Below, one piece after another: positions 1 through 32,531 of a stretch of DNA of 49,388 bases; within the stretch, counting starts at the first letter, position 1, and each line of letters opens with the position of its first letter. The stretch is from Nostocales cyanobacterium LEGE 12452 (lineage in GTDB: Bacteria > Cyanobacteriota > Cyanobacteriia > Cyanobacteriales > Nostocaceae). Where the stretch lies: positions 1 to 49,388 of the forward strand of contig JADEXV010000023.1 in assembly GCA_015206945.1 (NCBI GenBank), given 5' to 3'. The notes under the pieces are model-generated. The model saw only the letters and a list, made by a program, of their open reading frames with translations. It searched no databases and was not told the DNA's origin. The translations under genes were made by a program, and so were the position numbers.

Positions 1-1614
1 ATAGTTGGTGGCGTATCCTTGTCTCGGTTCAGCCGAGATTAGTCCATCGGCAGCCAGTCCTAACAAACTGTTGCGGGTATGACTGTCTGAGTATCCCAGT
101 CGATGAGCTAATTCTTTGGATGTAAATCGGATGTTTCGATTTTTGCTAAAAAATTCTAAAAGTGCGTCTTTGGCTGATTGTTCAGAGACGCTTGACCCCT
201 GATCCTGTTCTTCTCCTAAAAATGTGAAACTGACATCTTCAGGGTTGAAGTACATCCGATATTTCTTGCCGGAGGATCGCGATCGCGATTTATTGATTTC
301 TAAGAGGCGATCATAAGGTGTGGCGGTCTGGCTGTTGTCTTTGGTCAGTGTCCACACTTCTGAAACAGCGTTTCTAATTGCAGTTGTGCCCCGCACTCCT
401 CCTTCACGGTTGGTATGGTGAATTATCAAAAAAGTGGTTTTGTACTGAGTGGCTAACCCAGTCATTTGCAGGATGGGGCGGGCGTATTCCATCTGCGACT
501 CTTGATAAATCGAATATTTGTTAGCAGTTGAGAGCGAGTCAATTACTACAAAATCGGGCTGGAACTCCTTTAAATCTTGGATGAGTGCTGGCATATTCTC
601 GGCACTCCACCCAAACCGCACTCTGACGTATGTCCCAATGTCGTCTTCGGAATAACCAAGAGATTGCAATGCTTGCAGCATATCTCCCGGACTCTCGTCA
701 CCTTGGTAATAAAGGATTTTTCGCTTTTCCCCTGTAGCAATAAATTTACCGAATTGAGTACCTTGAATCATGACTTTCGCGATTCCATAAGTGAATTTTG
801 TTTTTCCAATTCCACCATCTGCTGCTAGCAGAATTGTGGTACTTTTGGGCACTAAGCCATTGACCAACCACTCACGAACTGTAGAACCTGCTAATTGCTT
901 TAGTTCTTCGTAAGTGAGTAAATTAGTACACACAGCAGTGAGACTTTTTAGATAGAAGTGTTCGAGAAAACTTGTCGTAACCGAATGCTCTTTAGCCAGT
1001 TCATGCAGCTTGAGAAATCTGAATGATGGCTCGACTACTGTTGTATAAATATTCGTCACTTCTTCCAGTAGTTGGTCGTGCTTCCATCTCTGGTATTCCT
1101 CTTTAGTTGGTGCAACTGGTGTATCAGTTACTGCTTTTATTTTGTTAGTAACTGTTGAGAATATATCTACTAAATCCTGCTCTTCATCGTAGGCTAGCCT
1201 GATAGCTCGATGCCCTTCCCTGATGAGTTCGCGGCGTTTATGCTTTTTGATTACCGTGTCTGCTTGCTTGTCGATATTTACCGCACTAACTGTTCTGTCA
1301 AAGAGAGTAGCTAGCTTGTTTCTCCCACCAATTCTTGCTAGTAAATCATGGTCTGATAACCAGCTACTAACACTTAATAAGTCTGTTGGTTCACCTTTCT
1401 TGCAAAGCTTTAAACACGCTTGATAAATATCTTTGTGTGCCCCAATGTAGAAGTGTTCTGGTTTTAACCTGTCTTTAACCCGATAGATTGCTGATGGATC
1501 TAATAGAATGCCACCCAGCACCGCTTCTTCAGCTTCAATATTTTGTGGTAAAAGCTTATTGTCGTTAGGACTAAAGTCTAATTCTTCGGTGTAAGAATAG
1601 GGAACAGCTACCAT
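1..1614 (-). CDS. DnaB-N / RepA-like AAA helicase of a plasmid-type replicon (C-terminus cut by window edge)
   Basis: The minus frame is open from an ATG at 1614 to the left edge (538 codons with no stop), so the C-terminal end is missing. Residues about 15-110 resemble the N-terminal domain of DnaB-type replicative helicases (LPQNIEAEEAVLGGILL). A RecA/RepA-like ATPase follows, with Walker A ADGGIGKTKF near residue 268 and a Walker B-like segment ending DFVVIDSL. The last visible part looks like a winged helix (RFTSKELAHRLGYS). Proteins with this layout act as replication helicases or helicase-primases on cyanobacterial plasmids and integrated elements. Unwinding at an origin is inferred from the family. 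The gene sits at the edge of a block of small orphan genes, which supports an accessory replicon or an integrated remnant. Confidence 0.8.
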   Translation of the reverse strand, partial: MVAVPYSYTEELDFSPNDNKLLPQNIEAEEAVLGGILLDPSAIYRVKDRLKPEHFYIGAHKDIYQACLKLCKKGEPTDLLSVSSWLSDHDLLARIGGRNKLATLFDRTVSAVNIDKQADTVIKKHKRRELIREGHRAIRLAYDEEQDLVDIFSTVTNKIKAVTDTPVAPTKEEYQRWKHDQLLEEVTNIYTTVVEPSFRFLKLHELAKEHSVTTSFLEHFYLKSLTAVCTNLLTYEELKQLAGSTVREWLVNGLVPKSTTILLAADGGIGKTKFTYGIAKVMIQGTQFGKFIATGEKRKILYYQGDESPGDMLQALQSLGYSEDDIGTYVRVRFGWSAENMPALIQDLKEFQPDFVVIDSLSTANKYSIYQESQMEYARPILQMTGLATQYKTTFLIIHHTNREGGVRGTTAIRNAVSEVWTLTKDNSQTATPYDRLLEINKSRSRSSGKKYRMYFNPEDVSFTFLGEEQDQGSSVSEQSAKDALLEFFSKNRNIRFTSKELAHRLGYSDSHTRNSLLGLAADGLISAEPRQGYATNY

Positions 1615-1838
1615 TTTTCTGTCCCCCGATTGACTAGCTTTGAATTATTTGATGTGGTAGAATGTGGAAAACTAACGGTTATTTGACCGCTTAATCTTAT
1701 TAAGTATTTGTTCATTTTTTACTGATGTTTTATTGTGTTGAATTCACCAAGGTCTAAATTGGTGAGTTTTTTTTTGCGTGTGCTTATTTGCCTAGTTCCT
1801 ATTGAAACATTGTTAGAAGTCGAACATCTTTGATTAAT

Positions 1839-2045
1839 TTAGGGTGCTGGTGTATCTGTAAGTTGCAGGTAAAGCAGAAAATTATCTAGTTCGTCCTCAG
1901 TCAATAGCAAGCGCGATCGCTTCCCGTAGTATTTCAACAAATGCTCTCGACCTTGTTCAGTCGTCCAGCCCAGGCGCTGCATTTGTGCATCTATGCTGGT
2001 CATGAGGTCTTCGAGCCTTTGACCTTCAGCTTTTTGGTCGGTCAT
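1839..2045 (-). CDS. small acidic hypothetical protein, 68 aa
   Basis: Function not recognised. The protein is charged and probably helical (LEDLMTSIDAQMQRLGWTTEQGREHLLKYY is split here only for description; the core reads RLGWTTEQGREHLLK). It has no membrane segment or signal peptide. Its ATG overlaps the stop of the upstream 84-aa gene (2042-2296) by four bases, which indicates translational coupling in a two-gene unit. The WTTEQGREHL part resembles short helical segments in other Nostoc accessory proteins, but this is an impression rather than a family match. Confidence 0.6.
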   Translation of the reverse strand: MTDQKAEGQRLEDLMTSIDAQMQRLGWTTEQGREHLLKYYGKRSRLLLTEDELDNFLLYLQLTDTPAP

Positions 2046-2296
2046 TGGACATTAGGCATTGGAGCAGGACGTTTAATTTTCATGCTTGTGGCTACCTCTT
2101 TGATCCGATCCAGCAGCGTTGGGTTTTGCTGGAACAGGTTTGGTAATTCATCCAAGACCCGCGCTGTTAAGACGATCGCCTGGTCAGGTTCCAGTTCTGG
2201 ATCAATGGTGCGGATATAGCCGATGAATTCCTCTAGCTCGTAGATAAGCAGACTTCTTGCTCTAACTACCTTTGATGAGATTTTTGCTTTAGTCAT
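2042..2296 (-). CDS. small helical hypothetical protein, 84 aa
   Basis: Function not recognised. The sequence is soluble and rich in helix formers (ELEEFIGYIRTIDPELEPDQ), with a basic N-terminus and a proline-rich tail. It is the first gene of a coupled pair with the 68-aa gene at 1839-2045 (ATGA overlap). The coupling and lack of internal stops support a real gene. The pair lies between the helicase gene and the ribbon-helix-helix gene on the same strand, so all may belong to one replicon-maintenance region. That role is inferred from position only. Confidence 0.6.
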   Translation of the reverse strand: MTKAKISSKVVRARSLLIYELEEFIGYIRTIDPELEPDQAIVLTARVLDELPNLFQQNPTLLDRIKEVATSMKIKRPAPMPNVQ

Positions 2297-2387
2297 TTGT
2301 CATTTATCATTGGCGATCGCACTCCCTTAGACATTCGGAACTTCGTGGCGATCGCACTCCGGTTTGAAGTGAGGCGATAGCGCCACG

Positions 2388-2425
2388 AATAAAGCCGTCT
2401 ACCTGAAGAGGCAAACGGCTTTATT
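2388..2425 (-). terminator. intrinsic terminator-like hairpin
   Basis: A perfect 11-base inverted repeat (AATAAAGCCGT and ACGGCTTTATT) is separated by a 16-base loop. Read on the minus strand it ends in a short T/A-rich tail. The stop codon of the -1 reading frame behind the ribbon-helix-helix gene (2421-2423) lies inside this stem, so that frame probably marks the true end of the coding part of the transcript. Confidence 0.65.
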
Positions 2426-2570
2426 CTTGATGTTCGATTTTTTCGTCTTTACTAAAATCCTTGTCTAATCGGTGCAGTTCTTGCAACCTAACTTCTAATT
2501 CACTTGCTTGAGTTTTGTAATATGCCAGCTGTCGTTCGGTTTCTTGGATCAGCTGGCGGACTATTTCCCC
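2421..2570 (-). other. coiled-coil extension in the -1 frame of the ribbon-helix-helix gene
   Basis: After the GGGG run at 2567-2570 the -1 frame reads about 50 residues with strong heptad character (GEIVRQLIQETERQLAYYKT, then ELEVRLQELHRL) and stops at 2421. The same frame continues upstream opposite the ribbon-helix-helix frame, but there it is Ser/Gly-rich and looks like a shadow. The simplest reading is one gene of about 115 residues joined by a -1 shift at or near CTG GGG AAA TAG. Either the shift is programmed or a single-base change broke the gene. A separate downstream cistron is less likely, because no start with a ribosome site is evident. Confidence 0.5.
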
Positions 2571-2761
2571 AGTGACTCCATTACTTGACCGTTCTCCAGT
2601 GCTAGCGGTATCTCCTTGTTGGCCACTCTCTCCACTAACTCTGATCTTGTCATTCCCAGACTCTCGGCTAATTGTCGAAGTGCTTCCCATGATTCCGGGG
2701 TTACTCTCAAAGTCCCCGATATCCCTACTTTCCCGCTTTTTGGACGGCCTGTTCTTGCCAT
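2561..2761 (-). CDS. ribbon-helix-helix (CopG/Arc-type) DNA-binding protein
   Basis: A basic N-terminus (ARTGRPKSGKV) is followed by a ribbon-helix-helix fold: a strand (GISGTLRVT), helix 1 (PESWEALRQLAESLG) and helix 2 (TRSELVERVANKEIP). Such proteins bind DNA as dimers and usually repress their own promoter or regulate plasmid copy number or partition. The frame ends at a TAG at 2561-2563, giving 66 residues. In the -1 frame a well-formed coiled coil continues to 2421 and stops inside a terminator, so this product may be a truncated version of a longer protein. Short AT-rich palindromes upstream (2803-2869) are candidate operators. The gene is divergent from the small-gene operon that starts at 3049 and may control it. 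Confidence 0.75.
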   Translation of the reverse strand: MARTGRPKSGKVGISGTLRVTPESWEALRQLAESLGMTRSELVERVANKEIPLALENGQVMESLGK

Positions 2762-2802
2762 TTTCTATTCCCATATCGACCCCTCAATTATTGCACATCT
2801 AA

Positions 2803-2869
2803 AAGTATATAATTAACTTGCACTTTTGAACGTGCAGTATTACTATCATAATATACTTTTATAAGTATA
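2803..2869. promoter_or_regulatory. candidate operator cluster in a divergent promoter region
   Basis: A perfect 7-base inverted repeat, TATACTT-TTAT-AAGTATA, lies at 2852-2869. A third copy of the half site AAGTATA is at 2803-2809. Between them is a second small palindrome, TGCAC-N8-GTGCA (2819-2836). The cluster lies just upstream of the ribbon-helix-helix gene and before the divergent plus-strand operon. Repeated half sites with dyad symmetry are typical of CopG/Arc-type operators, so autoregulation is a reasonable inference. Confidence 0.45.
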
Positions 2870-2977
2870 GAAGTCTCCCCAACGCCTGATAGTTTGCGTT
2901 GCACCTGGAGCAAGCACCCACGCCATTGCCGCAGTGCCCGGCGCGGAAACACCCTGTACCTGATGCCCAAATAAAAA

Positions 2978-3004
2978 GGCAATCGCTACTCGAAAGCGAT
3001 CGCC
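2978..3004 (+). terminator. hairpin in the operon leader, possible attenuator
   Basis: GGCAATCGCT and AGCGATCGCC form a 10-base stem with one mismatch and a 7-base loop, followed by TTGTTC. It is 45 bases upstream of the first operon gene and its ribosome site. One arm contains a HIP1 octamer, so part of the symmetry may come from HIP1 rather than from a role in termination. Confidence 0.3.
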
Positions 3005-3048
3005 TTGTTCAATGTAAATGGAAATTTGTCAATAAGGAGATTTTACCA

Positions 3049-3354
3049 ATGTCCAAGCCATTAGGCTACTACACCAGTTACACCCCCGGCGATGGTTCTT
3101 ATCTGGAAGTGTTGCAAGAGAAATACGGTGCAACTTTCGAGAAGATGACTAAACAAGAAAAACTCTTTCTTGTGCAAGCAATTGCGGCTCAATACTGCGT
3201 TGAGCTAGACGGCGATCCTCGCATCGAAATTAAGCAATTGCCTTCTGAAATGTATAAAAACTCAGTGTCATATAGCGACCTTCTGGGCTTACTCGAAGCA
3301 CTCATTGCACAAATCAGGTGGGGGCAGAATGCAGAACCTGTACACCACTCCTGA
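3049..3354 (+). CDS. hypothetical soluble protein, 101 aa, first gene of the accessory operon
   Basis: Function not recognised. The start at 3049 was chosen because AAGGAGA stands 8 bases before it. An in-frame ATG at 2899 would add 50 residues of unstructured sequence. The protein begins SKPLGYYTSYTPGDGSY and continues with a helical segment (EKYGATFEKMTKQEKLFLVQ) and a Leu-rich helix near the C-terminus (DLLGLLEALIAQI). Its end overlaps the next gene by 26 bases, consistent with tight coupling in the series up to 6118. Confidence 0.7.
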   Translation: MSKPLGYYTSYTPGDGSYLEVLQEKYGATFEKMTKQEKLFLVQAIAAQYCVELDGDPRIEIKQLPSEMYKNSVSYSDLLGLLEALIAQIRWGQNAEPVHHS

Positions 3355-3799
3355 AGCAGCTAAGTTAACCAACATCCCAGAAAGTACAATCCGCAGTTGG
3401 TTAACCCGATATCCTTCAGTGTTCCAGTTTGATATTCATGTCATCAAGGATGAACACAAGCAGAACCTGTGGACTGATGCGGGAATTGAACTGTTGCAGA
3501 GTCGGCGTGCGTCGAAAAATGCAACGGATGACGATGCAAATTTTGACGCAGAATCCGACGCACCCGATTTACTTGAGTCGCTGTTAGAGGAAGATTCACA
3601 GCGCCTAGCTAACGAATATTACCGACAGCTACCCGGTCGCACGTTGCAACGTATTAAACAGATGCGGCTCAACCCGACACCTGAACAACGCCAAATAGTC
3701 GAATTGTCATTCCGCACTGCCATCAACGCGGGAACAGAGCATCTACTCTTACCCACATATCAGCCGATGTTGCTAGAGGGAGGAGATGAAACAGACTAA
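3329..3799 (+). CDS. MerR-like helix-turn-helix protein, 156 aa
   Basis: The N-terminus LYTTPEAAKLTNIPESTIRS is a MerR/excisionase-like helix-turn-helix followed by a wing-like stretch (DEHKQNLWTDAGIELLQSR). An acidic linker (residues about 68-90) leads to a helical C-terminal part (QLPGRTLQRIKQM). The start at 3329 has AGGTGGGGG just upstream and is preferred over the ATG at 3305. A DNA-binding role is inferred from the HTH. It could be the operon regulator or a plasmid partition/replication accessory factor. It overlaps the next gene by 14 bases. Confidence 0.7.
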   Translation: MQNLYTTPEAAKLTNIPESTIRSWLTRYPSVFQFDIHVIKDEHKQNLWTDAGIELLQSRRASKNATDDDANFDAESDAPDLLESLLEEDSQRLANEYYRQLPGRTLQRIKQMRLNPTPEQRQIVELSFRTAINAGTEHLLLPTYQPMLLEGGDETD

Positions 3800-4037
3800 A
3801 CAACAGCTTACCAGTAAGGTTGTACCATTCACCGGGGAATTTTACCCAACGGCATCTGAACCCACACCATCCGGAAATAACATTGCTGCATTTTTAGTCA
3901 TGCTTGCAGCTGCATTAGTTGCTGGCTTGAGCATAGGTGCAATTTCCACGTACCAAAGCGCGGATCAAGTGCAACTGCGCGAAATGAAAGCCCAAAGCCA
4001 ACAGCTCGAAAAAGTCAAAAACCAAGTTTGTAGATAG
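3786..4037 (+). CDS. single-pass membrane protein with C-terminal coiled coil, 83 aa
   Basis: A hydrophilic N-terminus of about 30 residues is followed by one membrane segment (AAFLVMLAAALVAGLSIGAI) and a charged coiled coil (REMKAQSQQLEKVKNQ). The start lies inside the end of the previous gene with GGGAGG just upstream, which suggests coupled translation. Function not recognised. The layout, a short cytoplasmic tail with one helix and an external or internal coiled coil, fits a scaffold or anchor for a larger complex made by the neighbouring genes. That is an inference from architecture only. Confidence 0.65.
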   Translation: MKQTKQQLTSKVVPFTGEFYPTASEPTPSGNNIAAFLVMLAAALVAGLSIGAISTYQSADQVQLREMKAQSQQLEKVKNQVCR

Positions 4038-4046
4038 GAGTAAACA

Positions 4047-4559
4047 ATGGGAATCCTGGCACGAATTACTAGCGCTGCAAAGTCCAGCAACAAGAGTAAT
4101 GAATCGTCGCTCTCGACCGGGGGCCACGGGATTGATAAAAATAGGGTGCTATCTCCAACAGATCCAACCGTAGTTAACCCAGTGAACGCGGGAACTTGGG
4201 AGACTGTGAGGACAGCACCAGTCAATCATACACCTCGGTACTTTAACAAAGTTGAGGCTGATGCACTCAAACAGGTTGCAGCCCAGAAAAAACTTGAAGC
4301 ACGCCAAGCGAAACGAGCTTACAAATCGCTTAAAACTCTTGAACAATCAGATGCACAGGTACACCGTGAGCATCGCAAGTACATCAAGGAAGTTGCAGAC
4401 AGCGAACTGACTAAAAAGCGTTCAGATGCTTCTACAGCAAGGCATCTACACACACTCAGACCTGAGTATGCAAAGCTAGGTTTTGGTCTAGATAAGGCTG
4501 AAAATAAAGCCCAGCAACGGATTGAAGAACTGAAAGCCAAAATCAAGGAAAAATACTAA
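4047..4559 (+). CDS. basic coiled-coil protein, 170 aa
   Basis: Function not recognised. Residues 1-70 are low-complexity and polar. Residues about 73-165 are a long, Lys/Ala-rich helix or coiled coil (AQKKLEARQAKRAYKSLKTL). There is no membrane segment. A ribosome site (ATAGGAG) precedes the ATG. The stop overlaps the ATG of the next membrane-protein gene by one base (TAATG). The basic coiled coil could bind nucleic acid or act as a structural spacer, but the sequence does not decide this. Confidence 0.65.
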   Translation: MGILARITSAAKSSNKSNESSLSTGGHGIDKNRVLSPTDPTVVNPVNAGTWETVRTAPVNHTPRYFNKVEADALKQVAAQKKLEARQAKRAYKSLKTLEQSDAQVHREHRKYIKEVADSELTKKRSDASTARHLHTLRPEYAKLGFGLDKAENKAQQRIEELKAKIKEKY

Positions 4560-4831
4560 TGGCAAAGGCGGTACACCTGGGGGCTTGGTTCCTGCTAGGC
4601 TGTATCGCCTCTAGCTTTGTGGCTTGGCTAGGGGCGCTGCATCCTGCTTTGTTTCGGGTGATGTGGGTTATCTACATAATGTCTTGCGCTGCGCTAGTCC
4701 TTGCACTGCTTACCGATGACGCGGTGAGACAGTTTCTCAAATTGTCTGAACCAGATTATTATGCCTTGCTGATTGCGATCGCAGTTTCGATTGTCTTGGG
4801 AGGAATGCTGTCATGGCTGATAGGTGGTTAA
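4559..4831 (+). CDS. small integral membrane protein, about three helices, 90 aa
   Basis: Three hydrophobic segments are visible: LGAWFLLGCIASSFVAWLGA, VMWVIYIMSCAALVLALL and YALLIAIAVSIVLGGMLSWL. There is no signal peptide or known motif. It overlaps its neighbours on both sides (1 base upstream, 19 bases downstream), so it is translated as part of the operon. Function not recognised. Holin-like or membrane-anchor roles are possible, but nothing specific supports either. Confidence 0.65.
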   Translation: MAKAVHLGAWFLLGCIASSFVAWLGALHPALFRVMWVIYIMSCAALVLALLTDDAVRQFLKLSEPDYYALLIAIAVSIVLGGMLSWLIGG

Positions 4832-5355
4832 AGACCAATTGCTTATTGGCTAGTGCTGCGGCTTTTTGGCTAGCTGCACTTTCCCCATTACCCCAAATTG
4901 GCAAGGGAATCAGCTACAGCTTGGCACTTGTTGCATCAGTGCAACTAGTCACTGAGTCGCGGCGACTGATAGCGCAAGATGCCCGACGTGCAGCGCTCTC
5001 TGCAATGAACCAAGAACTCGAACAGGTAGAAATTGGACTGCATACCCAACAGCAAGAGCAAGCGCTCTATGAAATTTATGGCGCTGCACCAACTTACCCG
5101 CCGGAAGTCAAGGAGGAATTAACCACTAGCCTGGAACACTTATATAAGGAGCCGAGCGCAGATCGGACCGGTGAAACTTCCGCTTCCACTTCCGTGGATA
5201 AAGCCTTCTATTTAGCAGTTGTGGGACTGTTGGAAGTCAAAGGAGAAACTTATGTGATTGAGCAAATTTTGAAAATGGGCGGCCGTCGCTGGGAGGAGGG
5301 CAAGCGGCAATTGCAGCAGATATTGCAGCAAGGCAGGGAGGAGGAGTGGGACTAA
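4813..5355 (+). CDS. membrane-anchored protein with coiled coil and winged-helix-like C-terminus, 180 aa
   Basis: Two N-terminal hydrophobic segments (CLLASAAAFWLAALSPL and ISYSLALVASVQLV) are followed by a Glu/Gln-rich coiled coil (EQVEIGLHTQQQEQALYEIY). The C-terminal domain (GETYVIEQILKMGGRRWEEG) resembles the small helix-turn-helix found at the end of some Nostoc plasmid proteins. The ATG lies inside the previous gene. Function not recognised. A membrane-tethered DNA- or protein-binding role is inferred from the parts. Confidence 0.65.
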   Translation: MADRWLKTNCLLASAAAFWLAALSPLPQIGKGISYSLALVASVQLVTESRRLIAQDARRAALSAMNQELEQVEIGLHTQQQEQALYEIYGAAPTYPPEVKEELTTSLEHLYKEPSADRTGETSASTSVDKAFYLAVVGLLEVKGETYVIEQILKMGGRRWEEGKRQLQQILQQGREEEWD

Positions 5356-5429
5356 TTCAAAAGCGATCGCGCTTTGTGGAAGGAGTGCGATCGCTGTTCA
5401 TCTACCTATGTAAAAAATATCACAAAGTT

Positions 5430-5744
5430 ATGCAAATTAAAAGCATTAGTTACCACCGAGTGATTAACTTGGGGAACTACGAAAGCAAACGTCTAGAACT
5501 GTTTGCGGAAGTTCAAGAAGGAGAAGATCCAGAAACTGCAATTTCATCCCTAGCAGAACTTGTAGAGCGAAAAGCTAGAGAGAGTTTCGAGCTAATTTTT
5601 GACATAAAGGAACTGAAAAAGGAACAGAGAGAACTTAGTAAAGAAGTAGAACGCCTCAAAGCTGAAAAAGATAAATTGACTGGGGAGGAGCCTAACCCGG
5701 ATGATATCCCTTTTAATGTTGCACCTAATTTAAATAACTTTTGA
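5430..5744 (+). CDS. hypothetical protein with LGNYES motif and C-terminal coiled coil, 104 aa
   Basis: The N-terminal part (ISYHRVINLGNYESKRLELF, then EVQEGEDPETAISSL) resembles a small domain seen in many phage and plasmid proteins, where a strand carrying 'NLGNYES' is followed by an acidic turn and a helix. The C-terminal half is a coiled coil (KELKKEQRELSKEVERLKAE). The start at 5430 is chosen because this conserved part begins there. The frame opens earlier at 5346, but those residues overlap HIP1 repeats. No clear ribosome site is present. The biochemical role is unknown. Confidence 0.65.
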   Translation: MQIKSISYHRVINLGNYESKRLELFAEVQEGEDPETAISSLAELVERKARESFELIFDIKELKKEQRELSKEVERLKAEKDKLTGEEPNPDDIPFNVAPNLNNF

Positions 5745-5755
5745 AATCCCAAATT

Positions 5756-6118
5756 ATGCTGCTATCACCTGAACAAATGCTCAACGTACAGCTAGCTTTT
5801 TGGATTAACGATCCGACTCAATTAACTTTAAAAAATCGGGGTAAATCTAGAGATGAGAAGCTTGCCAATTTAGAGGAATGGAAAAAGTTAGTTGCAGTCA
5901 AGCAAAAAATTGTTGATGCTTTTAAACCGCGTCCTGGTGAAACAGATGTTTTTGTGCATGTTTTTACGGGTGAACGATTAAGTTACCCAGACTGCTTAAT
6001 AGAAACAGTTCTCACAGAAGCAGAAATTGAACTTTTAGATGAAGAAGACGAAGCTCTAGAAATTTTTTCAGATGGGTATTTTGAAGCAGCTCGGTTAGTG
6101 GCTCAAAATCTCGCCTGA
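5756..6118 (+). CDS. acidic hypothetical protein, 120 aa
   Basis: Function not recognised. The protein is soluble, with an N-terminal helix (SPEQMLNVQLAFWINDP) and a strongly acidic C-terminal part (TEAEIELLDEEDEALEIFSD). A TTG start at 5741 that overlaps the previous stop is an alternative and would add five residues. The acidic, compact nature is common in phage and plasmid accessory proteins such as DNA mimics, but no specific likeness is seen. It is the last gene before the non-coding stretch ahead of the IS110-like recombinase. Confidence 0.55.
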   Translation: MLLSPEQMLNVQLAFWINDPTQLTLKNRGKSRDEKLANLEEWKKLVAVKQKIVDAFKPRPGETDVFVHVFTGERLSYPDCLIETVLTEAEIELLDEEDEALEIFSDGYFEAARLVAQNLA

Positions 6119-6416
6119 TGAGCCGGACTGACTCGCCGGCGAAACGCGATCCATTTGCATCGCGTCGCGGTCTGGAGTCCAACCCAGACGTACAGCACAT
6201 ACACACAGCAGCTTAGGGCTTTTTGTATGAATCAAGCTTTTACGGCTTTCTCTAGTTCATAAGCTCGGCCGCTGTGAGTGCGCTGTTTTCTCCCTATGTC
6301 ACCAGAAGTTACCGCTTTTGGTTTTGCCTTGAGAGTGAACTAGGCTGTTGTGGCCTTCGGGTGATTCGCAGGCATGGCATCAGGGACATAAGACAGAACC
6401 ACCCAGGAGGAACTGA
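6119..6416 (+). other. 298-base non-coding stretch before the IS110-like gene; candidate structured (bridge-type) RNA
   Basis: No open frame of note is present. The stretch contains several self-complementary segments: CGCGAT/ATCGCG at 6145-6164, and CTAGTTCA (6253-6260) pairing with TGAACTAG at about 6338-6345, enclosing roughly 77 bases. A GCC-TTCG-GGT mini-hairpin lies near 6353. A strong ribosome site (AGGAGGAAC) ends it. IS110-family elements express a guide (bridge/seek) RNA of about 150-200 nt from the non-coding flank next to the transposase. The length and position fit, but the RNA itself is an inference. Confidence 0.3.
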
Positions 6417-7604
6417 ATGATTAGAATTTTGGGACTTGATGTTAGCAAGTCCTCGGTTTCAGCTTGCCTGCTTTTGGAGAAGCCCGAAGATCCACGTCAA
6501 TTCTATTATGAATGTCCATTTTTTAAGTTGAACGCTGATGCAAAGGGAATTCAAGATTTACTCGCGCTCAATGCGGACATTGCCCTACTAGAGCCGACTG
6601 GCAACAATTACAGCAAGCTTTGGGGCACACACTTGGCCCGTGCCGGAGTAGAAGTGCGGTTGGTAGGTCACAAGGAATTGCGAAATTATCGAGCAAATCA
6701 CTTGGTACTGCCTGATAAAGATGATGATGCCGATGCTCTCGCCCTTGCCTGCTACTACTTTGACTATCAAAAAGACCCGCGTCGATTTGTCCAAATTCGC
6801 GATCGCACCATTGTCAGAATCCGGGAACTGGTACTGAGACTTGCTCATTTAAATCGCGTTCAGTCGCCGATCATGAATCGTGCGCGGCAAGATTTAGCGT
6901 GGCAGTTTCCAGAGGTGGCACTAGTAAAGTCCAAGAGGGGTGAATCCGGTGAAGTGCCGCTACTGTGGGGCTGGCTTGCCGGAGTTCGCAAAAGTAAGCG
7001 TTATGACTGCCTTTACTCCCAAACCGTAGGCTTAGGCATCACTGACACAGTTCGCCAACACGCTTTGAGAATTTGCAATCTCCAAAGTGAGGAACACGCC
7101 ATCGAGGGAGAGTTGCGAGAATTACTTGGTGATCCTCGCTTCGAGCATTACCGTACAGTTTTTAAAAAGTTTGGATTTGGCGATCGCCTTTCGTCGGTCA
7201 TCATTTCTCAGATTTACCCAATTGAGGGATTCCTAGATGCAGATGGTAAACCAGAGGTGAGGATACGCCAGGGGCGAAATTCCAAAAAGCCCACTAAACG
7301 CCACCTTTCACTGAGAAGATTTCAGAAAGCCTTGGGCGCTGCTCCCTCAATGGAAGCATCCGGCGATAGCCGTAAATCTAAAGTAGTTGGCGGTTCGGAT
7401 TTGTGCCGTAAGTCTTTGTGGCAGTGGGTATTCACTCGCATTGAGCCGAAGCGATCGCGCCTGAAAAATGAAATTGGTAAAATTTTAGGCGAACAGTTAG
7501 ACACTGAAAAATCTGCGGGTCGTCCTGTAAAGCTTGTCAGGAATCGGATTGCAGCCAAAGGAGCAAGGTTACTATTTAGAGAATTAGTTAAAGGCTTGAA
7601 GTGA
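6417..7604 (+). CDS. divergent IS110-family DEDD recombinase/transposase, 395 aa
   Basis: The N-terminal RuvC-like domain keeps the DEDD pattern: D8 in ILGLDVSKSS, E59 in LLEPTGNN, and D103 and D106 in PDKDDDADALAL. This spacing matches IS110 enzymes. The C-terminal Tnp domain follows, with a helix-hairpin-like segment (FGDRLSSVIISQIYPIEGF) and a candidate catalytic serine S315 in APSMEASGDS, then a basic helix (LCRKSLWQWVF). IS110 enzymes join DNA under the direction of a bridge RNA. Relatives of the same fold include the Piv invertases. It is longer than many IS110 transposases because of inserts at about residues 175-200 and 275-300. No flanking copy ends are visible, so it may be a resident recombinase rather than an active insertion sequence. 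A strong ribosome site stands 6-12 bases upstream. Confidence 0.8.
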   Translation: MIRILGLDVSKSSVSACLLLEKPEDPRQFYYECPFFKLNADAKGIQDLLALNADIALLEPTGNNYSKLWGTHLARAGVEVRLVGHKELRNYRANHLVLPDKDDDADALALACYYFDYQKDPRRFVQIRDRTIVRIRELVLRLAHLNRVQSPIMNRARQDLAWQFPEVALVKSKRGESGEVPLLWGWLAGVRKSKRYDCLYSQTVGLGITDTVRQHALRICNLQSEEHAIEGELRELLGDPRFEHYRTVFKKFGFGDRLSSVIISQIYPIEGFLDADGKPEVRIRQGRNSKKPTKRHLSLRRFQKALGAAPSMEASGDSRKSKVVGGSDLCRKSLWQWVFTRIEPKRSRLKNEIGKILGEQLDTEKSAGRPVKLVRNRIAAKGARLLFRELVKGLK

Positions 7605-7911
7605 CAAAAACGGAATTATGACCAATGCTTCGTTTTTACAAAAATTGCATTATTGAATTTTTCGCTAGTGAAGATTACACCTGGGGTTGCTGTGTAACTT
7701 TCCCTAATGAAGATTGGGAAGATGTGGGCGATGGGTTTATTAGTTGGGAGAGCGCTTACTTTAAAGCGACTCAGGCAATAGATATTGGTTTAATAGCTAT
7801 GGGTCAAGCCAGCGATAACGAGCGAGTCCCCTCACGTGTAAATCCTGGGTTGTAGGAAAGAGTAGCTAAGAGGCTGGATGCAAGGGGCGCTGACCCGTTG
7901 AAGTGACAAAA
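7596..7911 (+). repeat. direct repeat of a 14-base leader (TTGAAGTGACAAAA), 302 bases apart
   Basis: TTGAAGTGACAAAA occurs at 7596-7609, where it includes the last codon and stop of the recombinase gene, and again at 7898-7911 before the second small gene. Similarity continues after each copy (CGGAATTATGACCAAT against TGGAGATTATGCCTAAT). The copies therefore look like duplicated translation-start regions, perhaps left by a tandem duplication of a small gene. It could also mark a recombination boundary. Confidence 0.6.
7625..7855 (+). CDS. small hypothetical protein, 76 aa
   Basis: Function not recognised. The protein is acidic and aromatic-rich (FPNEDWEDVGDGFISWESAY). It starts RFYKN, resembling the NRYYYK start of the 106-aa gene downstream, and both genes have the same duplicated leader. 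An ATG at 7618 in another frame aligns better with the downstream gene's start, so this copy may carry an early frameshift. It is probably a diverged duplicate of the neighbour. Confidence 0.45.
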   Translation: MLRFYKNCIIEFFASEDYTWGCCVTFPNEDWEDVGDGFISWESAYFKATQAIDIGLIAMGQASDNERVPSRVNPGL

Positions 7912-7919
7912 TGGAGATT

Positions 7920-8240
7920 ATGCCTAATCGGTACTATTACAAATTAGTTGGACAAACCCCGATTCCTGTTGAGTCCTTCATGGAGTGGTCTTTGTGGATA
8001 ATGTCAGCTAGCACCACGGTTATGATCAATGAACTTAAAGACTCGATCATTTCAACTAGATTCGTGGGCATAGACTTAAACCCTGGCAGCTGCAACTCGC
8101 TTTCTCAACCGATGATATTTGAAACTTTGGTCATGGGTGGGGTAATGGATGGAAAAAGGAACTTTTACCCCACCTGGGATGAAGCAATAGAGGGGCATCT
8201 GAAAATATGCACTCAAGTTTTTAAGCTTTCAAATGACTAG
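7920..8240 (+). CDS. small hypothetical protein, 106 aa
   Basis: Function not recognised. The start at 7920 is preferred over 7911 because TGGAGA stands just before it. The protein begins PNRYYYKLVGQTPIPVESFM and contains DEAIEGHLKICTQVF near the end. It appears soluble with no known motif. It follows the second copy of the 14-base leader and overlaps the next tiny frame by eight bases. Its gene is part of the accessory block to the right of the recombinase. Confidence 0.55.
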   Translation: MPNRYYYKLVGQTPIPVESFMEWSLWIMSASTTVMINELKDSIISTRFVGIDLNPGSCNSLSQPMIFETLVMGGVMDGKRNFYPTWDEAIEGHLKICTQVFKLSND

Positions 8241-8331
8241 AGTGAAACTAGAAGCTTTACTCCCTGTCCCAGATTTTGCAAGTGAGTTGAGGCTGACGGT
8301 GGAAGATTTATTTGGCTGGCTATTGGAGTAA
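8233..8331 (+). CDS. possible 32-residue leader-like ORF
   Basis: ATG at 8233 opens a frame reading TRVKLEALLPVPDFASELRL and ending WLLE. It overlaps the end of the 106-aa gene by eight bases and ends 37 bases before the GTG of the CbiG-domain gene. It may be a real small protein or the remnant of a larger one cut by rearrangement at the element boundary. Confidence 0.3.
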   Translation: MTRVKLEALLPVPDFASELRLTVEDLFGWLLE

Positions 8332-8809: not shown

Positions 8810-8841
8810 AATATTAGTATTACAAAAATTCCCTAATTTTT

Positions 8842-9195
8842 CTAGTCAACAACTCTCAAAAAATAGTTAATGATGCTAGAAACAATTGCTAGTACAATTG
8901 AACCTAACAAAGCAGGTAAAAAACCCTGAATCTCAAAACCAGAACCAGGAGTTAGGACACTTGCCAGCCAAAGGGCTAAAGCATTAATCACCAATGTAAA
9001 TAAACCAAAGGTGAGCAAGGTAATTGGAAACGTCAAAATCTGTAAAATTGGTCTAATAAATGCATTAACCAAACCAATTACAAAGGCAGCGATTAAGGCA
9101 GTCACAAAATTCTTGATAAAGAATCCCGGAACGATATTAGCTGTAATGAATAACGCCACCGCAGTACCGAGCCAAGTTAATAAAAAGTGTTGCAT
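8842..9195 (-). CDS. phage-holin-family (YvlD-type) membrane protein, 117 aa
   Basis: Four hydrophobic segments span the protein (HFLLTWLGTAVALFITANIV, FVTALIAAFVIGLVNAFI, LTFGLFTLVINALALWLASV and LLGSIVLAIVSSIINYFL). A conserved NAFIRPILQILTFPI between helices 2 and 3 is the hallmark of the PF04020 family, named phage holin family 4 but common in bacterial chromosomes and of unknown exact role. It is convergent with the CbiG-domain gene with only 32 bases between, and no obvious operon partner. Confidence 0.85.
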   Translation of the reverse strand: MQHFLLTWLGTAVALFITANIVPGFFIKNFVTALIAAFVIGLVNAFIRPILQILTFPITLLTFGLFTLVINALALWLASVLTPGSGFEIQGFLPALLGSIVLAIVSSIINYFLRVVD

Positions 9196-9767
9196 AAGTT
9201 TTTTTAGAGGAATTAGCAGTAAGTTTAATTAATTTCACTATTGCCAGTTGTGATTTGTAACACGATCGAGTGTTGTTGTGCTTGACTCCTAAAGTTGCCA
9301 TCATCTTTTATCAGCCTAAAATCAATGTAATTTTTCAGTGCTGGCATAGAGAGATACTTCTAATCTGTGTATCTCGATCGTATTGCAGTATGTACCGAAT
9401 TAAATTCATAAAAAATGGTGTGAAGCAAAAAAACCTACGGAGGTTTCTTGACTTAGAGAAACCTTTGTACATTAATGGCAACTACGTAATCGTTGCCAGT
9501 TTCTATAATTGACTGACAAGTTTTTTTGGCAATGTAGGGATTGAACCTCACACTACTGGAAGTGTCGTGATTCCTGCTTCAATCTGATTGGCACTCATAA
9601 TTTTTTATCCCCTCAATACTAGCTATTTTACCTGTTTTAGGGAATGAAGCAGCCCTGCTTTTAGAACGGATATACAAAAAACCTGTTTCCAAGCTGATGT
9701 CATCAAATAGATGTAACGGTAGTTGAAATGGGCAACCTAAGCCTATCCGCCCAAAAATCATGTATTG
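9196..9767. other. intergenic stretch, no convincing gene
   Basis: The stretch carries a 24-base hairpin with arms AGGTTTCT/AGAAACCT (9441-9464). Two weak open frames at 9270-9512 (+) and 9579-9761 (-) have no ribosome site or family resemblance. A short segment near 9530-9556 resembles the T-arm of a tRNA on the minus strand but lacks the rest of the molecule. The promoter of the chemosensory operon should lie near 9700-9767. Confidence 0.5.
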
Positions 9768-11327
9768 ATGAATCAGATAAGCAGCGATCGCCCCATTTTA
9801 TTTGAATCCAATTCTCAACACAGTGATGACTTTAGTTTGTCACAGATGGTTGATCTGATTGCTGATACATTCGGTATTCACATCAAGCCACACTATCAAG
9901 ATACATTAAAGAAAAATCTTTTGACTCGCATCCGGGCACTGGGATTATGCTCGCTCGATGATTACTATCAGTTGTTGGTGGCAAAAAATCAATTAGTTCC
10001 TGGTGCGACAGAGTGGCAAGAACTAATTTCTTTACTCACTGTAACTGAAACTTATTTTTTTCGGGATCAAGGGCAGATGTCGCTGCTCAAAAATCAGCTG
10101 CTCCCAGAGTTAATCGAGCGCAAACGGGAGCTTAGTTTAACTCAGTGTAACCTTGCTAATGGAGAATTTTATCGGCCGACATTACGGCTTTGGAGTGCCG
10201 GGTGTTCGACTGGTGAAGAAGCTTACTCACTTGCCATTCTGGTGAAGGAACTAATCCCTGACAATCAAGTATGGGACATTCTGATTTTAGGTACAGATAT
10301 TAGTCAACCCGCGATCGCACTGGCTCAACAAGGAATTTACAGTGATTGGTCTTTTCGGACAACCACTCCAGAGATCAAAAATCGCTACTTTCGATCCCAC
10401 AAACAAGCTTGGAAAATCGATCCTGCTATTCGAGCAATGGTCAAATTTCAACCTGGAAACCTGATGCAGGATAACTTTCCCGCTTATGCATCCAGTATTC
10501 ACGATTTCGATTTGATTATTTGCCGCAATGTGTTTATTTATTTTGACTTTAATGCGATCGCCCAAGTTATAGGCAAGTTTTACTGCTCTCTGACACCGGG
10601 AGGGTTTTTACTTACAGGACACACAGAATTACACGGGCAAACAACTGAACCGTTTCAAGTCAAAAATTTCCCACAATCTACGGTTTATCAAAGGCATAGC
10701 TCACTCAACGAGCAGAGCAAAGTCTTAAATACCATAATACCTGCTGCCATTGAGAGCAGGGAAACCGAAATTTTTTCCCCCTCTCTCCCAAGCTTGGGGA
10801 CGGGCTTCGGCGTGAGCGCAAACATTCAAACTCTTTTAGATGCAGCCAAGGAATCGTTAATTCAAGAAGCTTATGCCGATGTAATTCAAATAGCGGAACA
10901 ACTGATTGCTGTTGCTCCCCAAGACTTTCAGGCATATTGTTTGATGGCAGAAGCTTACGCAAATCTTGGCGATTACTCCCAGGCGAATCAGGCATGTCAG
11001 CAGGCACTCCAGATCAGCCCGTTGGCGATCGAACCCTATCATTTGTTAGCTCAAATTGCCGAAGAGCAAGGAGATCACGACAGTGCAAAATTATTCTTAA
11101 AACGTATTATTTATCTCGCTCCTAATTCTGTTACTGCTCACCTGGAATTGGGTTCTATATACGAACGAGAGGGAAATGAAAAACAGGCTCAAAAAACCTG
11201 GCGATCGCTTCTAGAGATTTTGCAAAATCTACCCCAACAAGCGATCGATTCCCATAGCCAGCAAACCACTGCCGAACTAAAAGCACACGTTCTTAAGCAC
11301 TTAAATTCAACTAGTTATGAGCCATGA
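9768..11327 (+). CDS. cheR: CheR methyltransferase with C-terminal TPR repeats, 519 aa
   Basis: The N-terminal helical domain (residues about 25-100) precedes a SAM-dependent methyltransferase with WSAGCSTGEEAYSLAILV, the acidic TDIS and ICRNVFIYFD. It methylates glutamates on the chemoreceptor helices encoded downstream. The C-terminal part (about 360-500) contains TPR repeats (AYCLMAEAYANLGDYSQANQ), as in WspC-type CheR. A linker at about 330-350 is a low-complexity repeat-like insert. ATG 9768 is preferred over the overlapping TTG 9765. It overlaps the next gene by 11 bases, the head of a six-gene operon. Confidence 0.93.
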   Translation: MNQISSDRPILFESNSQHSDDFSLSQMVDLIADTFGIHIKPHYQDTLKKNLLTRIRALGLCSLDDYYQLLVAKNQLVPGATEWQELISLLTVTETYFFRDQGQMSLLKNQLLPELIERKRELSLTQCNLANGEFYRPTLRLWSAGCSTGEEAYSLAILVKELIPDNQVWDILILGTDISQPAIALAQQGIYSDWSFRTTTPEIKNRYFRSHKQAWKIDPAIRAMVKFQPGNLMQDNFPAYASSIHDFDLIICRNVFIYFDFNAIAQVIGKFYCSLTPGGFLLTGHTELHGQTTEPFQVKNFPQSTVYQRHSSLNEQSKVLNTIIPAAIESRETEIFSPSLPSLGTGFGVSANIQTLLDAAKESLIQEAYADVIQIAEQLIAVAPQDFQAYCLMAEAYANLGDYSQANQACQQALQISPLAIEPYHLLAQIAEEQGDHDSAKLFLKRIIYLAPNSVTAHLELGSIYEREGNEKQAQKTWRSLLEILQNLPQQAIDSHSQQTTAELKAHVLKHLNSTSYEP

Positions 11328-32337: not shown

Positions 32338-32349
32338 AATAATTTTTAA

Positions 32350-32531
32350 GTTCACCGCGACGCCGTTTTACCTAAGTTTATGACCTGGGTTTATCCAGGT
32401 GGGAACCTAAATTCCTCGTTTAAAGTTTCCGGGTACATGCCCGGTATACTGCCACGAGAACAGTTGACTCCCTTGTCATTAAAGGCATAGATCAAAAAAC
32501 TTGATGGCAGTCACCAACGTCGTAGTGCAAC
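32350..32531 (-). ncRNA. ssaA: 6S RNA (cyanobacterial SsaA type)
   Basis: A minus-strand stretch of about 182 bases lies just downstream of purK, the place where cyanobacterial 6S RNA genes are known to occur. The two ends pair (GTTGCACTACGACG at the 5' end with CGTCGCGGTGAAC at the 3' end) to close a long hairpin. Inside are CCGGG-TACATG-CCCGG and ACCTGG-ATAAAC-CCAGGT hairpins and an unpaired central part, as in 6S RNA. A perfect TATAAT lies seven bases before the start. 6S RNA binds RNA polymerase holoenzyme by mimicking an open promoter. The exact ends are estimates. Confidence 0.82.

Follow-up and report, generated by a model that had tools for sequence, protein, structure and literature searches.

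The stretch of DNA analysed here, referred to as the window, is the whole of contig C437 (49,388 nucleotides) of Nostocales cyanobacterium LEGE 12452, whose draft genome comprises 8.38 Mb in 551 contigs; L, G and C numbers are labels of loci, genomes and contigs in this analysis. As a preliminary description of the window had stated, an open reading frame (ORF) for a protein of 395 amino acids (6417-7604) follows 298 gene-free bases (6119-6416). Judging by its sequence, the gene is an intact, divergent IS110-type DEDD recombinase, and the approximately 300 bases before it hold a predicted hammerhead ribozyme and a predicted two-loop bridge RNA, both with covariation (Table 1). These components belong to a family of multi-gene elements which very probably use the recombinase, together with the bridge RNA near the right end, as their integrase.

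Table 1. Features of the element and its surroundings (positions in the window)
Feature	Position	Strand	Basis or remark
IS110-type DEDD recombinase, 395 aa, presumed RNA-guided integrase	6417-7604	+	Pfam PF01548, conserved residues, AlphaFold2 fold
Type-I-like hammerhead ribozyme (predicted)	6112-6169	+	sequence, covariance model R1, parser
Hammerhead stem I; core CTGATGA; stem II	6112-6114/6167-6169; 6115-6121; 6122-6126/6136-6140	+	
Hammerhead GAA; stem III	6141-6143; 6144-6150/6159-6165	+	predicted cleavage after C6166
Possible hammerhead pseudoknot	6130-6179	+	loop II GACTC 6130-6134 with GAGTC 6175-6179
Predicted bridge RNA	6167-6416	+	RNAalifold on alignment A2, pair counts; 5′ end from predicted ribozyme cut, 3′ end provisional
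Left target guide TGTAT + core GAA, target-binding loop	6224-6231	+	variable 5-mer, constant frame
Right target guide TCTAG + TTC, predicting GAA-CTAGA	6251-6258	+	right flank match
Left donor guide AGAGTGAA, donor-binding loop	6332-6339	+	agrees with right end TAGAGTGA-A
Right donor guide GGGTGATTC, reading GAATCACCC	6359-6367	+	left end GAATCCCCA, one mismatch; sequence
Right end of element, TAGAGTGA-A, chromosome junction	8238-8246	+	chromosomal matches, motif
Right part of element within window	1-8245		left part is contig C77:1-8972
DnaB-like replicative helicase, broken by contig end	1-1614	-	79.5% DNA identity to L054 gene
Small element genes (helix-turn-helix-like, short membrane-type proteins)	3305-5355	+	common to several other elements
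Two small ORFs between recombinase and right end	7625-8240	+	

The recombinase and its relatives

The IS110 N-domain of Pfam (PF01548) scores 30 bits in a genome scan (cut-off 29) and 28 bits, slightly below the cut-off, by hmmscan, while the C-terminal Tnp_20 serine domain gives 16 bits, below its cut-off of 21. In an alignment of 67 full-length sequences that includes the window, D8, D103, D106 and S315 are invariant and E59 is kept in 66, which confirms the retention of these residues reported in the preliminary description. The AlphaFold2 model, made with 30 sequences, has a predicted local distance difference test (pLDDT) score of 87 and a predicted template modelling (TM) score (pTM) of 0.73. 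Its top PDB matches by Foldseek are IS621 with bridge RNA (8wt9, E 1.9e-10) and ISCro4 (9t56), at a TM-score of approximately 0.5-0.56 by query; no relative was found when PDB sequences were searched with the recombinase. Pfam, the Foldseek match to IS621 and the conserved residues together indicate a DEDD RuvC-like domain followed by a C-terminal serine domain.

The nearest named relatives of the protein come from Nostoc strains. The host genome has one full copy, and matches at E 0.001 occur in 56 of 99 relatives' genomes, many only as fragments, as well as in 65 named loci and two plasmid records. No relative appeared in phage records, nor in viral contigs, where the search covered close relatives only. 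Matches beginning at residue 6 or earlier number 108, and 78 loci were retained for upstream analysis; the 30 rows dropped, the second G091 copy among them, had upstream DNA identical to a kept row or shorter than 150 bases, and were mostly the same locus fetched twice. Remnants of the gene are also found. Of the 53 genus genomes, at least 25 have a fragment of roughly residues 345-381, which, given that about the same residues recur, may represent one ancient shared insertion. At L064, approximately 10018-10180 (G000:C508:28517-28627), a decayed recombinase C-terminus is followed by the right-end motif CTAGAGTGAACAGAG in the one copy inspected, and in G014 (L063 9837-10855) an inverted recombinase remnant adjoins DNA matching the chromosomal flank of the window at 8840-9396.

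A predicted hammerhead ribozyme

Positions 6112-6169 read CGC-CTGATGA-[GCCGG..CCGGC]-GAA-[ACGCGAT..ATCGCGT]-C^GCG, with the CUGANGA/GAA core, stems I-III and an NUH cleavage site all in place. A parser that demands the core and three stems takes 41 of the 78 upstream regions in its strict form and 53 when a one-base bulge is permitted, versus 19 of 20000 control segments in which real sites were masked. All 53 loci score at least 14, a value reached by one control only, which seems to be a fragment of the site in the window itself (L130).

MAFFT did not align stem II correctly in the wide set A1, and covariance model R1 was therefore built from 23 sequences, which match it by construction. Searched over 978 kb, the model finds 72 sites. 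Each belongs to a different one of the 78 loci and, by coordinates, lies a few hundred bases upstream of the recombinase. When these sites were aligned by fitting to the model, 97.7% of cells were paired and 13 of 15 pairs had changed on both sides; none of 500 shuffles was as good, and 18 of 500 were for the number of pair types. A scan of the phylum with R1 (292 genomes, stricter filters) gave 28 sites in 20 genomes, 25 of them with a DEDD match within the same locus (up to 3 kb). The three matches lacking one are L206, a locus of just 1.8 kb, L211 and L213. The IS110 N-domain is matched at 1e-5 in 35 of the 292 genomes, and some with several such matches, among them G260 and G095, are absent from the list of ribozyme matches; the ribozyme thus seems to be tied to this recombinase clade.

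A pseudoknot may join loop II to bases downstream of stem I. At least four complementary bases are available for it in 37 of 41 strictly parsed sequences, the bases themselves differing, a figure that carries no chance control, and no compensatory change was seen among 20 close aligned sequences. In eight loci (L046, L050, L019, L020, L024, L038, L042 and L128) an insert rich in palindromes that resemble GCGATCGC stands between CTGATGA and stem II. Taken together, the segment appears to be a self-cutting hammerhead, overlooked in the preliminary description, that precedes a guide RNA.

The predicted bridge RNA and its guides

The RNAalifold prediction for an alignment of 20 sequences contains a target loop, a donor loop, stem III and the pseudoknot helix; stems I and II were added to it, and the structure is partly derived from the same sequences on which it was tested. 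Read with this in mind, 97.8% of cells in the whole upstream structure are paired and 24 of 56 pairs are altered on both sides, with none of 500 shuffles equally good and slid versions only 29-44% paired. The double-sided changes bear out the structured non-coding partner region, a candidate bridge RNA, that the preliminary description had placed here. The complementary segments to which it drew attention, CTAGTTCA and TGAACTAG, are indeed present at 6252-6259 and 6336-6343, but they form no conserved helix. That pairing was rejected, CTAGTTCA consisting of a variable guide and the constant TTC of the target loop and TGAACTAG lying in the donor loop.

Successive patterns for parsing the guides recovered 24, 14 and then 42 of the 78 loci. 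All 42 parsed pairs are distinct once identical rows are dropped, and the two G091 copies share one guide. Among 15 close relatives the two 5-base guide segments of the target loop are 27.8% identical, versus 86.1% elsewhere in the RNA.

Guides and insertion junctions

The left target guide of the window fits the left flank TGGAT in four of five bases, and the right one fits the right flank CTAGA (8248-8252) in all five, with one extra A at the junction, as is also the case in L087. Across the family, the right junction could be compared in 36 loci with a right-end motif, out of the 42 with parsed guides. The five bases after the motif equal the locus's own right guide in 23 of the 36 and agree in four of five in 6 more, versus a full match in 3 of 1260 pairs when guides were swapped; for the first 31 loci, none of 100000 permutations was as good as the own guides. 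The donor guide and the right end agree in form in all 36 loci (31 AGTGA/TAGAGTGA and 5 ACTGA/TAGACTGA), these being the only two forms searched. A more distant group of 13 loci (35-38% identity) has another right end, GTTTCAGTTACCCT-GAA, which is followed by the own guide in four of the six loci that were parsed; in four others (L021, L024, L026 and L038) the pattern took the donor loop, and in three it failed. The parsed loci of this group without a fit are L041, with 290 bases to search, and L030, with none in 1224.

Left ends in which the own left guide stands, five of five, before GAATCCCCA were found 7-18 kb upstream of the gene in 10 further copies: at 12-15 kb in L045, L046, L047, L048, L049 and L067, at 6.7 kb in L076, at 9 kb on plasmid CP150887.1, whose right end fits too, and, for the two G091 copies, at approximately 18 kb. 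These two copies also have one unrelated similar site apiece, and their right flanks are CGAAA (5/5) and CTAAA (4/5). The left-end scan met the GAATCCCCA motif in 8 of the 42 loci, in 6 of them with the own guide in full; many other loci are short of upstream DNA.

Empty sites are present for two elements, those of the window and of L049. Among the listed matches to the chromosome downstream of the gene, those of 32 of the 52 other genus genomes begin at window 8246. The bases before this point, in 22 rows from 19 genomes, are alike among themselves and unlike the window, the pattern that an empty site should show. The gene that the element interrupts is Uma2-like, and its left flank lies at C77:8973 of the same genome. 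The left junction reads ..TTGGATG|AATCCCCAG.., the right junction ..CTAGAGTGA|AACTAG.. and the empty site ..TTGGATGAACTAG... In the case of L049, the joined flanks (362 bases) are matched in full and as a single stretch in G038, G009 and G030, with some match in 41 of 53 genomes, and its 13-base target GGCATGAAAGTGC is intact in nine of the 12 loci inspected, one base off in two and, in one, the element's own left junction. The junctions of both elements share GAA and show no target duplication, the window having the extra A.

The preliminary description had seen a gene without insertion ends. Ends do exist, at window 8245 and C77:8972, and they fit the guide. If the two contigs meet, as we infer, the element consists of C77:1-8972 and window 1-8245 and is approximately 17.2 kb long; a helicase gene spans the break between them.

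Related elements and their genes

Related elements occupy many different sites, with two per genome in G041, G015 and G091. Six measured from end to end are 13105, 15391, 15737, 16620, 15458 and 16149 bp long; others are approximately 19 kb (two, in G091), 10 kb (the plasmid) and 8 kb (one). These data bear on the suggestion, made in the preliminary description, that the recombinase is domesticated, and on a reading in which it no longer moves DNA and performs a host or element-internal inversion. The single full copy in the host genome and its conservation alongside a gene cluster would suit such a role, which we regard as extremely improbable in view of the many sites occupied by relatives, the guide-matched junctions and the empty sites. 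What does hold from that description is that a recombinase with an upstream guide RNA serves a larger surrounding element.

An ordinary compact IS110 insertion sequence inserted beside these genes would have the same DEDD fold and bridge-RNA logic. Its probability is nonetheless minimal, with left ends 7-18 kb from the gene, the ends of an element 13.1-16.6 kb apart in six cases, approximately 10 kb apart on the plasmid and 19 kb in G091, and parts of the upstream cluster (window 2875-5396, in some genomes also 2-1626) accompanying the gene in several genomes. The further case raised at the outset, that the gene would prove to belong to a normal insertion-sequence copy, does not hold here, since there is one full copy and its ends enclose approximately 17 kb.

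All six complete elements encode the DEDD recombinase, a tyrosine recombinase of 193-207 amino acids and a small left-end protein, each of which is directly matched by the corresponding protein of the host copy. Long proteins also cluster in all six, the host one of 968 amino acids matching three directly, and the helicase of the host element matches that of one complete element directly; the homologous helicase gene of L054 has Pfam matches to DnaB N (1.4e-28) and AAA_25. No capsid, terminase or conjugation genes were recognised among the element proteins tested, one of which has a weak tape-measure match (6.5e-6). The space between recombinase and right end is taken up in Nostoc linckia z4 (L054:8551-9342) by a DpdA-like gene of a DNA modification family (Pfam 1.9e-27). 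Elsewhere in the window, an ordinary 6S RNA (Rfam RF00013, 107 bits) is found at 32348-32531 on the reverse strand.

Discussion

Because guides and junctions agree, our results are best explained by RNA-guided integration in which the DEDD enzyme is the integrase. From the anatomy, covariation, guide-junction matches and empty sites observed here, a sequence of events may be proposed. A transcript entering from upstream would carry the hammerhead and cut itself, here after C6166, and this processing would give the bridge RNA its 5′ end. Within a complex of protein and RNA, the target loop would pair with a site L5-GAA-R5, and the donor loop with the joined ends of the element (TAGAGTGA-A with GAATCCCCA). 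The recombinase would then exchange strands in the shared GAA, the element landing as L5-GAATCCCCA...TAGAGTGAA-R5 with no target duplication. In this manner the element appears to select its insertion site through a short guide RNA that lies downstream of a ribozyme.

Several observations weigh against this proposal. The ribozyme segment scores 23.1 bits with the Rfam model RF03152 (RAGATH-1-hammerhead), below the cut-off of 56.3, and no other hammerhead model is listed. In the protein model, S315 falls inside a segment of low confidence (residues 312-326, pLDDT below 50). The donor guide has a constant mismatch to the left end (TCACC vs TCCCC), and the window itself departs from its guides by the left mismatch and the extra A at the right. 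The target and donor loops match site and ends across the family, but 5 of 36 right junctions misfit their own guide (0-3 of 5 bases: L066, L068, L075, L103 and L118), and L066 and L050 have GAATCCCCA upstream with a left guide that misfits. At L103 the junction agrees instead with the guide of another copy from that genome, L127 (Nostoc linckia z4), which suggests that the two copies were probably mis-joined into an assembly chimera; L127 is in none of the junction counts, and its stored left guide is a mis-parse.

The tyrosine recombinase, present in this element as in the six complete ones, makes another integration enzyme possible. It has been considered that this phage-integrase-family protein integrates the element and that the DEDD unit is a resident insertion sequence merely travelling inside, and the unit is indeed conserved with a sharp left edge, similarity beginning at 6112 or 6113 in most close relatives and ending near 7583-7622. 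That edge, however, is the start of the ribozyme. Moreover, the guides of the DEDD RNA match the junctions of the whole element, and the sequence common to both junctions is essentially GAA. Integration by the tyrosine recombinase is therefore very unlikely, and we favour the DEDD recombinase and its bridge RNA as the integrase.

Within RNAs that are otherwise 86% identical, the guide bases agree no better than expected by chance (28%). We tentatively raise the idea, in itself rather doubtful, that the elements rewrite their own target guides by some process besides slow mutation, re-programming the integration site, and that the ribozyme-released RNA may take part. The way in which IS110-type guides come to a new target can be tested on these elements. 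RNA-guided integration as proposed here would extend bridge-RNA recombination from short insertion sequences to the integration of multi-gene elements, and the dozens of natural guide-target pairs form a compact test bed for programmable insertion of large cargo. It would also give a bacterial hammerhead a concrete function open to test, namely to produce the 5′ end of a guide RNA that targets DNA.

Comparison with known systems

Integrative elements with tyrosine or serine integrases carry the integrase gene near one end, insert site-specifically and leave empty sites in relatives. Their sites are recognised by protein-DNA contact, whereas here an RNA guide would choose the site. Insertion sequences of the IS110/IS1111 type are compact, consisting essentially of a recombinase and its RNA. 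By contrast, the element ends described here enclose approximately 8-19 kb with other genes, a hammerhead precedes the RNA, and the guides vary strongly among relatives.

The likeness to the IS110 family, as represented by IS621 and ISCro4, lies in the DEDD fold and in an upstream RNA with target and donor loops (available text of PMC11208160 and PMC11208158), as well as in a short core common to target and donor (available text of PMC11208160). In IS110 elements, according to that available text, the guide RNA promoter arises where the two ends abut in the circle (PMC11208160). In the present elements 7-18 kb separate the RNA from the left end, and a promoter of this kind would not directly precede it. 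The seekRNA of IS1111/IS110 elements likewise matches short stretches to either side of the position where the element inserts and, in the available text, the constructs have hepatitis delta virus (HDV) ribozymes after the RNA, unlike the native hammerhead before the RNA found here (PMC11187229).

No report combining a hammerhead with a bridge RNA was found in a literature search that left bioRxiv and most subscription papers outside its scope. Many bacterial hammerheads were described near integrase genes and often grouped with prophages, their function being left open with mRNA processing mentioned, in the available text of PMC3088659, whose main text has no occurrence of 'cyanobacteri*' or 'Nostoc'. 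The predicted ribozyme shares with them, as far as that text describes them, the core, three stems and a pseudoknot contact, and differs in its Rfam RF03152 score below the cut-off and in its tie to the guide RNA of a recombinase. Since hammerheads near integrase genes are already reported there, the neighbourhood is not new; what the literature search did not turn up is the link to a bridge RNA.
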